The notes under the pieces were generated by a model. It was not told the DNA's origin, made no database searches, and saw nothing but the letters and a program-made list of their open reading frames with translations. 64,000 nt of DNA from Candidatus Zixiibacteriota bacterium (GTDB lineage: Bacteria; Zixibacteria; MSB-5A5; GN15; FEB-12): NCBI GenBank assembly GCA_024278935.1, contig JAJRSF010000002.1, forward strand, positions 1 to 64,000, in the 5' to 3' direction. Both the position numbers and the translations under genes were made by a program. Numbering within the stretch: position 1 is the first letter of the stretch; every line of letters begins with the position of its first letter. This document shows, piece after piece, positions 8,097-14,358 of the stretch.

Positions 8097-10700
8097 CTAA
8101 TTTGAATCTTGAGATTTTGTTGTAAGAAGGAAATTTATATCTTCAATAAACGTTCCACCTTCAACAGGTTGAATTTCAAAATCTATAAACGGTGGGTTAC
8201 AGTCATAGCCATATTTTTCTAGTGCACCTTTATCAAGATAGGCTCGATAAGAACCCGGGATAAGCCCAAGGTAATAAAAATCACCTGAATTAAATGTAGG
8301 CAGTTCTAAAAGTGTTTCTTTTGAGAGATTCATTATATATACTTTAAAGCCACCAAGCCCGGAAGTAATCAGTCCCAGTTTTCGTTCTACCTTGCCGGAT
8401 AATTCACTTGCAGTAACGATAGGCACTTTTATAGATGTAACCACGTTCGGATTTATTTTAACTTTATAGTTTTCATGTGTTGGTTTCAGCATTGGATCGT
8501 CGAGTGAATACTGATCAATTTGCACTATGTATTCTTCATATGGACGAAGGTTGTTATAGAAATATTTTCTTTGTGTTGTACTGCCTGTTACATTCACTCT
8601 AGCACCTTTTATTTTGGCACGGAGACCTTCAAGGTACTCTTCTTCATTATCCATAACACCATTATAGTTGTCATCTAAAAATGGTTTTACAACTGCTGCA
8701 CCAAAGCCTATCGAGTTATTTCTATCAAAGTGGAATGCTTTGTTTTGAGAATCATATCGGATCGAACCTTTTTGCATTTGATTATACGAAGTAGAATTAG
8801 CATTTTTTGAAAAACGTGAGGTAAAGTCGGCAAACGCTTGTAAGAAATTGATCGTCAGCATAAAAGTATTTGATTTCGACTGATTGTTTCTCTCGTATGA
8901 AAAACCTAGTTGGCTTGTTCTGAATATTCTTTTGGCAAAAAACAGACCATATTTTTCAAGCATACTTGTTGTATGATTATAGTCAACTCTAAATTGAGGA
9001 CGGATAAATTTTAATAAGCTTGTTGAAAGCAGAATTTGACTTTGCATCTGACTTTCAGAATCATAGAAATTGTTATTAATTTTGTACTGTCCTATATAAG
9101 TAAAGTAAATAGGATTGGCCGAAACATTAGCACCATAGTTCATATTGATTGCTGAAGTTTCCAAATATTTATCATAGGAAACATTGTAACGAACACCAAC
9201 ATTTTGTCCAAAAACTTTTAAAGGAGATGAAATTGCAAAATGAACATTATACTGGGTAGCTAATGGATTCTTGATTGGATTCACAGCATACTTCGCAAAA
9301 TCTACATTGAGGTTTAGCACCGATGGCAGAGAATAATTCAACCGAGCCCGATTGAGATAGTTTGGTATAAGAGCTGCATTAAAAGTCATATTCCCAATAA
9401 TTTGGTAAGTCGCATCTAATCCCATTAATGGTTTAGAATTTTCGTCTGGGGAAAGCGGAATTTCTGAACTTATTCCAAGAGTTATTTTATCAGTAACACC
9501 ATAAATTGAATTTGTTTGAATAAATTTTTTGATCTCTCTATTTTCGAATCCATCACCGATAGCAATTGCATATTCGAATTCATTTTTTGGAATCAATGTA
9601 TACGGCACTCGTACAATATGTTCTTTAATCAAGTACTCACCGTTAGGTCCATACATGCGAAGTTCAATATTTGATGAGCCGTAAAACACATCGGTAGAAA
9701 ATTCATACATACCATCTGCTTTTGTCATAACATAGTCAGCAAGTTTATTGTCAATATAAAGTTCAACTTCCCAATCCGGTCCTACAAAATCAGAGATAAT
9801 AATCGACTGGAAAAATTTTCTTCGTACTTGTGGTCTATTAGTCACCATCAGGCCATCTAAGGATCTGCTTAGTGCACCACCTCCGGTAACATTTCCAATT
9901 TCAGCTTGTGTGATAAAAGTATTTTTATTGAAAACATAATGCCACTTGTAATCTAGTTGATCGGTATCAAACAGCTTGGAGTCTTCGTCGCCAAAAGAAC
10001 CACCACTCGTAATTAGTAAATCTCCGCCTAAAGCCATACTGCCGAATCTCAGATTATAATAATGTTTACTCTTTACTCCGATAGGGTTTGTTGAAAGAAG
10101 CCAGTCTACTGACCCTGCCTCTAAGTAAGTTTTTGTAGATTTTATATTGACAAAATCTTTGAGAGCGATTTCTTCTTTGTCCAGTTTCTCTCTGGCAATT
10201 TTTCTTTTAAGTTTTTTATAGACAGGGAAATTTTCATCGAGTCTCAGAAAAACTCTAAGCAAAGTGAAATCAAAATCTGCATTGAGATCAAATATCTGGT
10301 TTAAGGTTTCTAGCCTGACATAGAGATCATCATCACCAAAATAATAATTTGATGCAAGGTATGGTATCTCTTCCCCAAATACTTTTATATGATTTTTAGC
10401 AAGGTCAAAGTCGAAAGTTTTATCTTTGGTCAAATAAAAACCTGAAACTTTCCTTGTTAAGAAGTCAGCTTCAATATTTATATCGAGAAGTGTAAAAACT
10501 TTTATCAATGGCAGGTAGATAGACGTACCATCGTACATTACAACAATATCAGAGACAACTGCTTTTGGAACTTCAAACGAAATTACAATTTCTTCAAGTT
10601 CCATCTCAGGCGTCTGATAAGTTTGTGCATTAATCTTAGATGACAATAGTAAAATGAGTATTGTCATAATAAGAGCTGTTTGCAATGTCAAGTTATTCAT
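8097..10700 (-). CDS. Usher-like outer-membrane protein of a chaperone-usher-type locus
   Basis: The protein has 867 residues, about the size of fimbrial ushers. A signal peptide (about 1-25) precedes an N-terminal domain with the pattern YLPLIKVFTLLDI then a SGFYLTKDKTFDFDLA strand, resembling the start of alternative TcfC/CooC-like ushers. The middle is long and beta-rich, with alternating hydrophobic/aromatic strands consistent with a 24-strand barrel, and includes a plug-like E-set segment (WEVELYIDNKLADY). From about residue 690, DDNYNGVMDNEEEY opens SdrD/carboxypeptidase-regulatory-like Ig domains to the C-terminus. It lies 27 bases downstream of a PapD-like chaperone and four DUF4402 pilin-like genes, which is the main reason for the usher call. 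Similarity to classical PapC ushers is weak by eye; another OM translocon is possible. Confidence 0.65.
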   Translation of the reverse strand: MNNLTLQTALIMTILILLLSSKINAQTYQTPEMELEEIVISFEVPKAVVSDIVVMYDGTSIYLPLIKVFTLLDINIEADFLTRKVSGFYLTKDKTFDFDLAKNHIKVFGEEIPYLASNYYFGDDDLYVRLETLNQIFDLNADFDFTLLRVFLRLDENFPVYKKLKRKIAREKLDKEEIALKDFVNIKSTKTYLEAGSVDWLLSTNPIGVKSKHYYNLRFGSMALGGDLLITSGGSFGDEDSKLFDTDQLDYKWHYVFNKNTFITQAEIGNVTGGGALSRSLDGLMVTNRPQVRRKFFQSIIISDFVGPDWEVELYIDNKLADYVMTKADGMYEFSTDVFYGSSNIELRMYGPNGEYLIKEHIVRVPYTLIPKNEFEYAIAIGDGFENREIKKFIQTNSIYGVTDKITLGISSEIPLSPDENSKPLMGLDATYQIIGNMTFNAALIPNYLNRARLNYSLPSVLNLNVDFAKYAVNPIKNPLATQYNVHFAISSPLKVFGQNVGVRYNVSYDKYLETSAINMNYGANVSANPIYFTYIGQYKINNNFYDSESQMQSQILLSTSLLKFIRPQFRVDYNHTTSMLEKYGLFFAKRIFRTSQLGFSYERNNQSKSNTFMLTINFLQAFADFTSRFSKNANSTSYNQMQKGSIRYDSQNKAFHFDRNNSIGFGAAVVKPFLDDNYNGVMDNEEEYLEGLRAKIKGARVNVTGSTTQRKYFYNNLRPYEEYIVQIDQYSLDDPMLKPTHENYKVKINPNVVTSIKVPIVTASELSGKVERKLGLITSGLGGFKVYIMNLSKETLLELPTFNSGDFYYLGLIPGSYRAYLDKGALEKYGYDCNPPFIDFEIQPVEGGTFIEDINFLLTTKSQDSN

Positions 10701-10727
10701 TTTAATCTCTAACTTCTTATTCTAATC

Positions 10728-11606
10728 TTATTCGTTTAGACTTAATAATGTCGAAAGATCGTTACCAAAAATCATTTCATTGGTCGGAATATCATTTCTC
10801 CCTTTATTGGTAACAGAAACAGCAACCGAATAAGGTCGTTTAAAGTTGCCTGCTTTTATTGGCAAAGACACTTTACGTTTTAAATCCCGATAAACCGCAA
10901 GCTGAATATGGTTTTTACTAATCTCTTTGTTATCAGCATCCAGTAAACGGCATTCAAAGAGACCTACATACGAGACATTACCTTTGTTGCCAAAATCTAC
11001 TATAACATCAACAGACTCGTCTTTTACTATAAGTTCGGAACCTTTGATTTCAAGAGCTGCGATTAGCTCACCAGTACGATATTTAAGCATGATAGCAGTA
11101 CGCATAATCATATTTAACTTTGTTGTAATCTGCTCTTCATCGGTAGCAGTTGGAATCGATGTTATCCCCTCTTGAGACTCGACAACAACTCTTACCCAAT
11201 ACTCGCCATCTTCCAAACCTTTTGGAGGTCTTGCGATAAACCGTACAACCTGAGAACCATTTGGCGGAATAATTAGTTTTCTTGGAAAAGCTTTAATCCA
11301 TCCTAAAGAAGAGTTCGGATATGTGATTGCGGTATCTCTTAAGAAAATACTAACATTGCCTAAGCTATCTGATTCTGGAATTCCATAGCTGAAACTAATC
11401 GAAACTTCCTTTGGACTATTTGATGGGTTTTGTAAGTTCATACGACCGGTTTTTGATCTATCATTAAGAACAATCACCGATGGTGCGACTAGCACACCTG
11501 CTGTCACTTGCGAGACAGATGCCGCAAACATTAACAAAAACACAAAAAATCCCCATAAGGAATTATGTGACTTTTCACTTATGGGAATTCTATTTTTCTT
11601 TTTCAT
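10728..11606 (-). CDS. PapD-like periplasmic pilus chaperone
   Basis: This is a 292-residue exported protein. A cytoplasmic lead of about 17 residues precedes the hydrophobic signal segment (LWGFFVFLLMFAASVSQVTAG). The mature part looks like two immunoglobulin-like domains, as in fimbrial chaperones. PSVIVLNDRSKTGRMNLQNPS resembles the first strands with the exposed basic residue, and FPRKLIIPPNGSQVVRFIAR matches the F1-G1 region that donates a strand to pilin subunits. In known systems the chaperone folds subunits in the periplasm and passes them to the usher. It lies between the pilin-like genes and the usher-like gene on one strand. It is not a close relative of E. coli PapD/FimC. Confidence 0.75.
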   Translation of the reverse strand: MKKKNRIPISEKSHNSLWGFFVFLLMFAASVSQVTAGVLVAPSVIVLNDRSKTGRMNLQNPSNSPKEVSISFSYGIPESDSLGNVSIFLRDTAITYPNSSLGWIKAFPRKLIIPPNGSQVVRFIARPPKGLEDGEYWVRVVVESQEGITSIPTATDEEQITTKLNMIMRTAIMLKYRTGELIAALEIKGSELIVKDESVDVIVDFGNKGNVSYVGLFECRLLDADNKEISKNHIQLAVYRDLKRKVSLPIKAGNFKRPYSVAVSVTNKGRNDIPTNEMIFGNDLSTLLSLNE

Positions 11607-11687
11607 AATAACACTATCCTATGTTTATTTAAAAGTTCATCATTTCGCAATCCTATGCAAAATGATTTTAAAATCAAATTATTTTAT

Positions 11688-12236
11688 CTATGCACCATTA
11701 TACGCAACAGTTAAAATAATGTCTGCTGTATACGCACCAGCTGTTTGATCAACTGAAGGGTTCACTGAACCACCTAAGAACAAACCAGTTTGTCCAGCAC
11801 CACCAATAACAACACCAGTAGGTAAGTTATAAGGGTTTTGGTTTAGATAACCAGATGCTGCAGTTGGATCAACGTTTGCACTTGTATCAACACCACAATC
11901 AGTAGTACTGAAAGTAATAACCATACGGTCATCACCAGTTGCTGTTGACATATAGTCAGGTAATTGTAGATAGATAGAAATACCTGATGTTGCTTGACCA
12001 GTAATAGTGAAGACACCGGCAGCGGCATCTACTTCAGCAACTGAAGATGCAACGCCCTGGAATATTGTTCCAAAGACTAATGCTGCTGTTGCTGTTACTG
12101 TTAATGGAGTTTGAACTGTAGCTGTTGCAGAACCTGCGGCTACATCTTGAGCTTGAACTGCTGTCGGAGTGCCTACGGCAATCATCATGACAAACAGAGC
12201 CAAGATCAATAATACGTTTTTGTTTAGTTTACACAT
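11688..12236 (-). CDS. DUF4402 pilin-like secreted subunit (copy 1)
   Basis: A 182-residue protein has a signal peptide ending near AVQAQ. The mature protein starts with an alternating hydrophobic strand (AAGSATATVQTPLTVT), a plausible donor strand. A DUF4402 beta-sandwich follows (LVFGTIFQG, LPDYMSTATGDDRM, DCGVDTSA) and ends in ADIILTVAYNGA. In chaperone-usher pili, subunits complete each other's folds through such N-terminal strands; that role here is inference. An AAAGGAAG ribosome-binding site precedes the ATG. It is closely similar to the next gene upstream and looks like a tandem duplicate. The chaperone follows. Confidence 0.75.
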   Translation of the reverse strand: MCKLNKNVLLILALFVMMIAVGTPTAVQAQDVAAGSATATVQTPLTVTATAALVFGTIFQGVASSVAEVDAAAGVFTITGQATSGISIYLQLPDYMSTATGDDRMVITFSTTDCGVDTSANVDPTAASGYLNQNPYNLPTGVVIGGAGQTGLFLGGSVNPSVDQTAGAYTADIILTVAYNGA

Positions 12237-12295
12237 GCTGCTTCCTTTGTTTTTAAAAAATATTACAATGTTTAATTTTTCTTACTTCGTTAATC

Positions 12296-12853
12296 TTATG
12301 TCCCATTATATGCGACAGTTAAAATAATATCAGCAGTATACGCACCTGCTGTTTGGTCTACTGATGGTCGTACTTGACCACCTAAAAACAATGCCGTTTG
12401 AGTACTCGTACCACCAATAATAACACCTGATGGTAAACTGAATGGGTTTTGGTCTGTCCATCCGGTTGCTGCCACAGTAGGGTCAACATTGGATGTTGTA
12501 TCAATAGCACAATCCGTTGTACTAAATGAAATAACCATTCGATCATCTCCCGATGCTGTAGACATATATTCAGGTAATTGTAAGAACAATGATATACCTG
12601 CACCTGCTTGACCGGTCATTGTAAAGATTCCGGCGGCGGTATTTGTTTCAGCAACTGAGAGTGGTACTCCTTGGAAAATCGTACCAAAGGCAAGGGCTGC
12701 TGTTGCAGTCACTGTCAATGGTGTTTGTACTGTTGCGGTAGCTTGACCAACAGCGACATCTTGTGCTGCGACCGAACCAACAATGAGAAAACTCATCGAG
12801 AGCAAGAGAACTAAAATTTTCCAAACAAAAGGCATTTTTCGTTTTGAATCCAT
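12296..12853 (-). CDS. DUF4402 pilin-like secreted subunit (copy 2)
   Basis: A 185-residue protein with a basic N-terminus, a signal peptide ending VAAQ and a DUF4402 fold. It is collinear with copy 1 along its whole length: ATATVQTPLTVTATAAL, FGTIFQGV, ISLFLQLPEYMSTASGDDRM, DCAIDTTSNVDPT, then SVDQTAGAYTADIILTVAYNGT. One difference is an ATGWTDQNPF segment where copy 1 has SGYLNQNPY. An AGGAGA ribosome-binding site lies six bases before the ATG. Probably a structural or minor pilus subunit transcribed with copy 1, chaperone and usher; its relative abundance is unknown. Confidence 0.75.
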   Translation of the reverse strand: MDSKRKMPFVWKILVLLLSMSFLIVGSVAAQDVAVGQATATVQTPLTVTATAALAFGTIFQGVPLSVAETNTAAGIFTMTGQAGAGISLFLQLPEYMSTASGDDRMVISFSTTDCAIDTTSNVDPTVAATGWTDQNPFSLPSGVIIGGTSTQTALFLGGQVRPSVDQTAGAYTADIILTVAYNGT

Positions 12854-13084
12854 GCCTGTCTCCTATTTATAAAATCAAACTATTTCTTCTGTTTATACTT
12901 TTGCTTATTTACTAAATCGTCACACAGTGCAATTCCTTAACAGTAAATTTTAGAAAAATTGCATAAAACCAAAAGTTTTTTGAGAAAATATTATTTTTAT
13001 CCATTAGATAAGGGCAGAACCGACCACTTTACCCCTATTTTGTTGAATAACTACGACTTAAGTAAGTCCATTATTAATGGCATA

Positions 13085-13112
13085 AAAAAATCCGCCCGAA
13101 AGCGGATTTTTT
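13085..13112 (-). terminator. Intrinsic terminator after pilin copy 3
   Basis: A perfect 11-bp stem (AAAAAATCCGC at 13085-13095, GCGGATTTTTT at 13102-13112) lies 22 bases past the last codon of the interrupted pilin. It would separate pilin copies 3 and 4 from copies 2 and 1, chaperone and usher, or reduce read-through. Confidence 0.85.
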
Positions 13113-13134
13113 AAAGGAAGCAGCATTATAACAA

Positions 13135-13692
13135 CTAATTGCCATTATATGCCACAGTTACTATTATATTCCCCGAATATGCTCCTGCGGATTGGTCGAC
13201 TGAAGGTATTACCTTCCCACCTAAAAACACCATAGTATGTGGTGTTGCATCAGAACCAATCACTAAACCATTCGGAATATTATTTGGATCAACATCGGGT
13301 CAACCATCACCAAATGCCGATGGGTCAGCATTTGAGGTTGAATCGACGGATAAGTCAGAATTATTAAAAGCGATGTTCATTCGATCATCACCTGTAGCAG
13401 TTGAAATATATTGAGGAAGAGTCATATATGCTGAGATTCCGGAACCAGCTGAACCTGTAATAGCGAAAATTCCCGATGCGGCAGCATCACTGTTTGCAAC
13501 AGTTTTGGAAACTCCCTGAAAGACTGATCCAAATTGTAAATCCTGTGTGGACACAATTGCAAGAGCGGTTTGTACATTTGCAGTAGCTGATCCATTGGCT
13601 ACATCCTGTGCTGATACATTTGTAAAAGCAAAGCAACTTAAAACACAAACTATAGTAGATATGATTCTCTTATTATCTCTGATGTTTTTCAT
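13135..13692 (-). pseudogene. DUF4402 pilin-like subunit (copy 3), interrupted by an in-frame TGA
   Basis: The start with a GGAG ribosome-binding site is the ATG at 13692. A signal peptide ending VSAQ and the family patches (GSATANVQTALAIV, FGSVFQGV, LPQYISTATGDDRM) follow. The frame reaches a TGA at 13300-13302, then continues in the same frame with PDVDPNNIPNGLVIG and a normal family ending SVDQSAGAYSGNIIVTVAYNGN before a TAG. The TGA aligns with the Trp of ATGWTDQNPF in copy 2, so TGG-to-TGA is the simplest change. Other genes here end with TGA, so general reassignment is unlikely. It may be a recent pseudogene, a base-call error, or a read-through product (the next base is C, a leaky context). 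Confidence 0.75.
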
Positions 13693-13890
13693 GAAGTACT
13701 CCATGTTTCTATTTTTTAAAGCTATAGTTATCTTCTAATATAATAATCGCCCTCTTGCTAAAGAGGTATTAGAAAATTGCCATGAAAAACTGGATTGTTT
13801 AAAAAAGTTGTACTATTGTCAAGCATCTTATAGGATGGTTACAATAGTATTTGCAGAACTATGGGAGATTCCCCATAGAAATAACTGAAA

Positions 13891-14358
13891 TTAATTACCG
13901 GTATATGTTACCGTGATGACAATATTAGATGCATAACTTCCCTCTGACTGGGTAAGTCCCGGAACAAGGATCCCTCCAAGCCATACATATAAACCACTGG
14001 AGCCGATGCGATATGTTAGAGTATGCCACGGATCTAAATTGTTAAATTCAGGGTTCGACTGATCGGGAGTCGCCGAGGTATCTATGGCACAGTCGGTCTC
14101 CTGGAAGATAACTTGCATATTGGAAGAACCTATATTCATGTAAGTCGGTAAAGCAAATTCGATAGTCACTTCGTTGCCTGCAGTACCGGAGATAAAAAAT
14201 TCGGCAGCTAACCCGGCAGTAGTTTTTGAAATCGCTTTCGGAATCCCGGGATAGACAGTTCCAAAAGATAGATTATTATTCACCGTCACATTTTGGGCAG
14301 ACAGATGAGTGCTTGCGAGAAGCAGGCAGAAAAATAAAATAAGCAAATTTCTTTTCAT
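13891..14358 (-). CDS. DUF4402-like secreted subunit, divergent (copy 4)
   Basis: A 155-residue protein with a signal peptide ending LSAQ. It is shorter than the other three and lacks their long N-terminal strand, going almost directly into NNNLSFGTVYPGIPK. The shared frame is still visible: a LPTYMNIG strand, DCAIDTSA, a WLGGILVPGLTQSEGSYAS segment, and the ending NIVITVTYTGN. It is the most upstream gene of the locus on this strand. The missing donor-type strand would suit a tip or terminal subunit, or a different partner; that is inference. No ribosome-binding site is obvious, and a TTGACT/TATAGT pair with a short 15-base spacer lies just upstream. Confidence 0.65.
   Translation of the reverse strand: MKRNLLILFFCLLLASTHLSAQNVTVNNNLSFGTVYPGIPKAISKTTAGLAAEFFISGTAGNEVTIEFALPTYMNIGSSNMQVIFQETDCAIDTSATPDQSNPEFNNLDPWHTLTYRIGSSGLYVWLGGILVPGLTQSEGSYASNIVITVTYTGN

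Follow-up and report, generated by a model that had tools for sequence, protein, structure and literature searches.

Chaperone-usher pili have been placed in Proteobacteria, Cyanobacteria and Deinococcota (PMC4654587, PMC10104325). A cassette on the minus strand of a Candidatus Zixiibacteriota contig (C18, host genome 3.4 Mb), located in a window of 64,000 nucleotides that constitutes the whole stretch of DNA analysed, raises the question whether such a system also exists beyond these phyla and, if so, to which class it belongs. The cassette encodes four DUF4402-type exported subunits, a chaperone with PapD fold and an outer-membrane protein of 867 amino acids:

8097..10700, minus strand: usher (AlphaFold2 pLDDT 87.6; Foldseek matches to FimD/PapC; profile-profile E 6e-14, controls run); approximate domains are a signal peptide, the N-terminal domain 36-152, a barrel of ~24 strands, the plug 311-365 and C-terminal beta domains 664-760 and 765-861
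10728..11606, minus strand: periplasmic PapD-fold chaperone, 292 aa (sub-threshold PapD_N; Foldseek EcpB 1.6e-9; invariant Pro); its residues 160-178 are the candidate for the donor strand G1
11688..12236, minus strand: s1, DUF4402-type subunit with N-terminal donor-like extension (PF14352 22.9 bits; alignment; extension length 23)
12296..12853, minus strand: s2, DUF4402-type subunit with N-terminal donor-like extension (PF14352 19.7 bits; alignment)
13078..13113, minus strand: intrinsic terminator predicted in the s3-s2 gap (RNA fold and alignment, four congeneric sequences)
13138..13704, minus strand: s3, DUF4402-type subunit with extension, its frame broken by a TGA at 13302-13300 (a profile match that reads across this single TGA has E 5.9e-71)
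13891..14358, minus strand: s4, short subunit without donor-like extension, predicted tip (PF14352 26.6 bits; 8 residues, not 23, ahead of LxFG)

The same cassette order is repeated in dozens of genomes, and chaperone and usher genes are separated by 8-63 bp in 35 of 35 loci, a conservation that exceeds chance. The gene inventory of the original prediction was recovered in full and on the same strand, except that s3 is no intact open reading frame: the TGA ends s3 after 134 aa, and the frame then runs on in register to ...VTVAYNGN. In three congeners the same codon is TGG (Trp) and the reading frames are intact (186-189 aa), suggesting that s3 is broken or misread by one base in the assembly, whether through a nonsense mutation peculiar to this genome or through faulty assembly. 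General recoding of TGA was set aside, as all five remaining genes stay open when TGA is read as a stop and the congeners carry TGG.

No Pfam or NCBIfam model names the 867-aa protein an usher. The Pfam Usher family (PF00577) matches neither this protein nor any in 61 related genomes, and the one domain that Pfam detects in it, SdrD_B-like and C-terminal, stays under the threshold; homologues likewise carry only SdrD_B- or CarboxypepD_reg-like C-terminal domains besides weak N-terminal or TcfC matches. We modelled the protein with AlphaFold2 on an alignment of 39 homologues. The secondary structure of the model comprises an N-terminal domain and ~7 long strands, then a five-stranded insert (311-365), ~18 more strands and two C-terminal beta domains, the number of barrel strands read from it being ~24-25. 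Structure prediction, the check proposed for the usher, thus yielded a ~24-strand barrel with a plug inside and an N-terminal domain, and the description of the protein as usher-like with C-terminal Ig-like domains is borne out by a FimD/PapC-like model ending in two beta domains. When the model was compared with the PDB by Foldseek, the 18 best matches were all FimD or PapC (E 1e-27 to 3e-12), followed by the Ig region of SdrD, with other barrels at 4e-6 or worse; identity in the structural alignment with FimD/PapC was ~10%. The N-terminal domain (~36-152) lies inside these full-length alignments and was compared as part of them; homologues match Cu_amine_oxidN1 weakly in this region.

Profile comparison gave a concordant result. 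A profile of 43 diverse usher homologues matched that of six classical E. coli ushers with 98.2% (E 6e-14) over 693 columns, and reversed profiles, TonB-dependent receptors and LptD, used as controls, gave 25% or less over short alignments. EcpC scored 82.5% against the usher profile and 13.3% against the profile of the classical ushers. A sequence search of the PDB with the usher profile found no usher. From the structural and profile-profile matches we conclude that the large protein is an usher homologous to known ushers and, given the lack of a PF00577 match in the 61 genomes, that it lies outside this family.

The pair of s1 and chaperone shares one genomic reading frame and was modelled as a read-through product with the stops set to serine (pLDDT 83.2, pTM 0.74). 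Foldseek listed EcpB first (1.6e-9), then CupB2, CfaA, CsuC and FimC, together with a few unrelated Ig-like proteins. By sequence, PapD_N was matched below threshold, a PDB search with the chaperone profile returned weak chaperone matches only, and profile-profile comparison, the E. coli rows FimC and EcpB left out, gave E 4e-8. A proline is reported as the only invariant residue of the chaperone superfamily (PMC4654587), and this D1 proline is conserved in 36 of 36 aligned chaperones. The postulated PapD-like chaperone is thus supported by its fold, with EcpB as nearest solved relative, and by the superfamily proline.

An arginine in strand F1 (Arg89 of CsuC/EcpB) is reported to mark the non-classical, i.e. 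archaic and alternative, chaperones (PMC4654587). The corresponding position is Arg (EYR) in 24 of the 36 aligned chaperones, and the Zixibacteria chaperone reads EYWxR, with Trp137 at this position and Arg139 two positions on; Arg139 may take over the carboxylate anchor. The anchor residues Tyr169 and Arg148 of EcpB found no reliable counterpart in the alignment, in which the second domain aligns badly. In the read-through model the chaperone strand 160-178 (19 residues) has a pLDDT of ~95, the N-terminal extension of s1 is disordered (pLDDT 36-48) and the s1 body reaches ~90, a picture consistent with the one expected for a chaperone-held subunit. Neither of the two outcomes named beforehand as refuting the prediction was obtained, strand complementation being addressed indirectly through this model. 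Foldseek additionally placed the WxL-interacting protein of Enterococcus faecium among the matches of the chaperone fold (10728-11606), and a distant kinship between Gram-negative chaperones and Gram-positive WxL systems is possible.

Among the subunits of the host genome only s4 passes the PF14352 (DUF4402) cut-off of 25.2 bits, s1 and s2 staying below it and s5, encoded on another contig, just under it as well. Subunits adjoining homologous ushers elsewhere match DUF4402 with E values down to 1e-31. The assignment of the subunits to the DUF4402 type consequently holds for s4 and for the loci of homologous ushers, but is marginal by Pfam in the host. A PDB sequence search with the subunit profile matched no solved pilin. 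The common C-terminal strand, originally given as ending in T-V-x-Y-x-G, exists with a slightly different end, TV[AT]Y[NT]G followed by a single variable residue, its Y and G being unchanged in 45 aligned subunits.

At the other end of the subunits, the stretch that separates the mature N-terminus from the conserved LxFG motif has a bimodal length across the order, with 23 residues in ordinary subunits and 8 in s4. The ~15 residues absent from s4 (QDVAxGxATATVxxxL) are a candidate donor strand, in keeping with the idea of hydrophobic N-terminal strands suited to donor-strand exchange as far as sequence anatomy can tell. Every measurable s4-bearing operon contains one subunit type without the extension (as a tandem pair in two loci, L056 and L057), and those s4 rows that the pattern missed start similarly short, as judged by eye. 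The suggestion that the short copy s4 is a tip or terminal subunit is strengthened by this order-wide pattern: a subunit that accepts a strand and cannot donate one is expected at the distal end, and we predict that s4 is the tip subunit. The tip adhesins CsuE and CupE6 of the archaic pathway are two-domain proteins (PMC10104325), whereas the predicted tip s4 is one short domain.

In most relatives the gene order is s5 - s6 - s4 - s3 - s2 - s1 - chaperone - usher, and at the operon head a divergently oriented gene encodes a repeat protein whose C-terminal tail is of the type IX secretion kind; this gene has the same place in at least 21 loci of relatives. s6, a small and diverged exported protein, has a donor-like start and a C-terminal strand like those of the other subunits. 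In the host the operon head is displaced, s5 being located on contig C11 (L161:6951-7481) beside the repeat-protein gene (L161:5165-6646, minus strand) and an s6-like gene on contig C33 (L162:3473-3970). The s3/s2 hairpin has 12 pairs followed by a U tract; each of the four congeneric sequences is predicted to form it, and a conserved block reaches from it to s2; the hairpin was not among the calls of a generic consensus terminator scan. The predicted terminator and the conserved block suggest that s4-s3 is probably transcribed separately from s2-s1-chaperone-usher. Some Zixibacteria harbor two cassettes of this chaperone-usher family, the second having diverged to ~21-24% identity (L052, L055 and L063 in G036, G014 and G044) and, in L063, including DUF4402 subunits. 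In another locus (L059:8884-11541) the usher gene consists of two consecutive open reading frames of 666 and 214 aa, the C-terminal domains being split off either genuinely or by an assembly error.

The closest named relatives of the host genome are Candidatus Zixiibacteriota metagenome-assembled genomes (75-76% identity over the usher), and the usher is present in 49 of the 61 related genomes. When the phylum was sampled more widely, matches of full length were concentrated in the same order, weak matches covering the C-terminal domain only. A single-sequence contig search came back empty, whereas an alignment-based search gave, beyond the phylum, homologues in Saprospirales and other Bacteroidota, Ignavibacteria, Gemmatimonadota, Elusimicrobiota, Fibrobacter, Desulfovibrio and Alpha- and Gammaproteobacteria, most of them with a chaperone and many with DUF4402 genes next to the usher. 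In the class of Neptunomonas a minority of the sampled genomes has usher homologues. Further homologues are located on plasmids of Polaromonas, Novosphingobium, Sphingopyxis and Pseudoalteromonas; in the four plasmid loci that were read DUF4402 genes adjoin the usher, and the usher is annotated as 'carboxypeptidase regulatory-like' or hypothetical. One cultured carrier is Polaromonas sp. JS666, with the genes BPRO_RS26565-26580 on its plasmid 2. The host genome is FCB-type, as originally stated, but the system is not confined to such genomes.

By the features tested the locus belongs to the chaperone-usher superfamily. The usher and chaperone folds and the conserved cassette support the predicted pilus or surface-fibre system of this kind, with a putative fibre. 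The ushers compared directly were the six classical ones of E. coli and EcpC. With the classical pathway (FimD/FimC, PapC/PapD) the locus shares the usher barrel with plug and C-terminal domains and the chaperone fold, but it differs by the low identity in the structural alignment, the missing PF00577 match, the absence of fimbrial-domain subunits and the order subunits-chaperone-usher. With the archaic (sigma) pathway (Csu, CupE) it has in common a wide phylum range and small single-domain pilins with an N-terminal donor strand (PMC10104325), and chaperones of the CsuC and CupB2 type appear in its list of fold matches; the pilins, however, are DUF4402 here and spore-coat-U there. As in the alternative (alpha) pathway of E. 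coli (EcpA/EcpB/EcpC), the pilin start is donor-like, EcpB is the best chaperone fold match and similarity to EcpC is detectable in the usher profile, but the gene set is another one, the pilin is DUF4402 instead of MatB (EcpA), and CooC_C and TcfC, both detected in EcpC as control, are absent from the host usher and not matched over the cut-off in any usher scanned. A literature search for DUF4402 found no paper, most subscription journals and preprints being outside its reach. Taken together, we regard it as very probable that the locus represents a complete system of an undescribed, non-classical chaperone-usher class with a DUF4402 pilin, in which fibre and role are inferred. With less assurance we favor a fourth class beside the classical, alternative and archaic ones, defined by the DUF4402 pilin and an own chaperone anchor (EYWxR in Zixibacteria), forming the main or only such pathway of FCB-type phyla, found on plasmids of cultured Proteobacteria as well, and overlooked since ushers are annotated from their C-terminal Ig-like domain.

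Computation establishes the fold and homology of the usher, the fold of the chaperone, the conserved operon and the presence or absence of the extension, and with these elements assembly may be pictured as follows. The subunits would cross the inner membrane via Sec, whereupon the chaperone would lend its G1 strand to each of them, binding the C-terminal strand (TVxYxG). The complex would be passed to the outer-membrane usher, whose ~24-strand barrel would be gated by the internal plug, and there the N-terminal extension (QDVAxGxATATV..L) of the incoming subunit would displace the chaperone strand from the previous subunit. The chain would leave as an extruded fibre, with s4, lacking the extension, loaded first and ending up at the tip. 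We infer not only this strand exchange but also the fibre, its subunit order and an adhesive role.

Some chaperone-usher systems build thin or capsular structures, and as a long fibre cannot be deduced from sequence, the usher might, in place of long pili, export surface adhesins that are short or do not polymerise, or else an amorphous coat resembling a capsule; we consider this rather unlikely, since several subunits with donor-like extensions accompany one without, as in polymeric pili. That the locus is a very diverged branch of the alternative (alpha, ECP/CS1-like) class and not a class of its own is a more serious contender, albeit still a doubtful one. It would account for the markedly higher score of EcpC against the usher profile than against the classical one, for EcpB as best fold match of the chaperone, for a weak TcfC match in one usher homologue and for the CarboxypepD_reg-like C-terminus that EcpC shares, but is at odds with the lack of CooC_C and TcfC over the cut-off, the different pilin family and a phylum range exceeding that reported for the alternative class (PMC4654587).

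The reading of the large protein as an ordinary outer-membrane barrel or Ig-rich adhesin with an incidental chaperone neighbourhood is suggested by its Pfam domains, restricted to the C-terminal SdrD_B- and CarboxypepD_reg-like ones, and by the annotation of the plasmid homologues. It is extremely improbable and effectively refuted by the Foldseek ranking, in which ushers precede all other barrels, and by the profile comparison, which showed no similarity to TonB receptors or LptD; the conserved chaperone adjacency also argues against it. Our preferred reading, a chaperone-usher class with a DUF4402 pilin, is itself weakened by the Trp at the anchoring-Arg position of the Zixibacteria chaperone, by the interruption of s3 in the host assembly and by the lack of a solved pilin matching the subunits.

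The family extends the chaperone-usher pathway to Zixibacteria, Bacteroidota, Ignavibacteria, Gemmatimonadota, Elusimicrobiota and Fibrobacter-type genomes, and it suggests a pilin role for the domain of unknown function DUF4402. This branch, which some cultured Proteobacteria carry too, goes unrecognised in sequence databases, and the systematic misannotation of its ushers is corrected here. The cultured carriers make the system testable now. Three of the cassette plasmids (L165, L166 and L168, from cultured Polaromonas, Sphingopyxis and Novosphingobium) are typed as conjugative, and the Polaromonas plasmid cassette is flanked by IS6 transposases.
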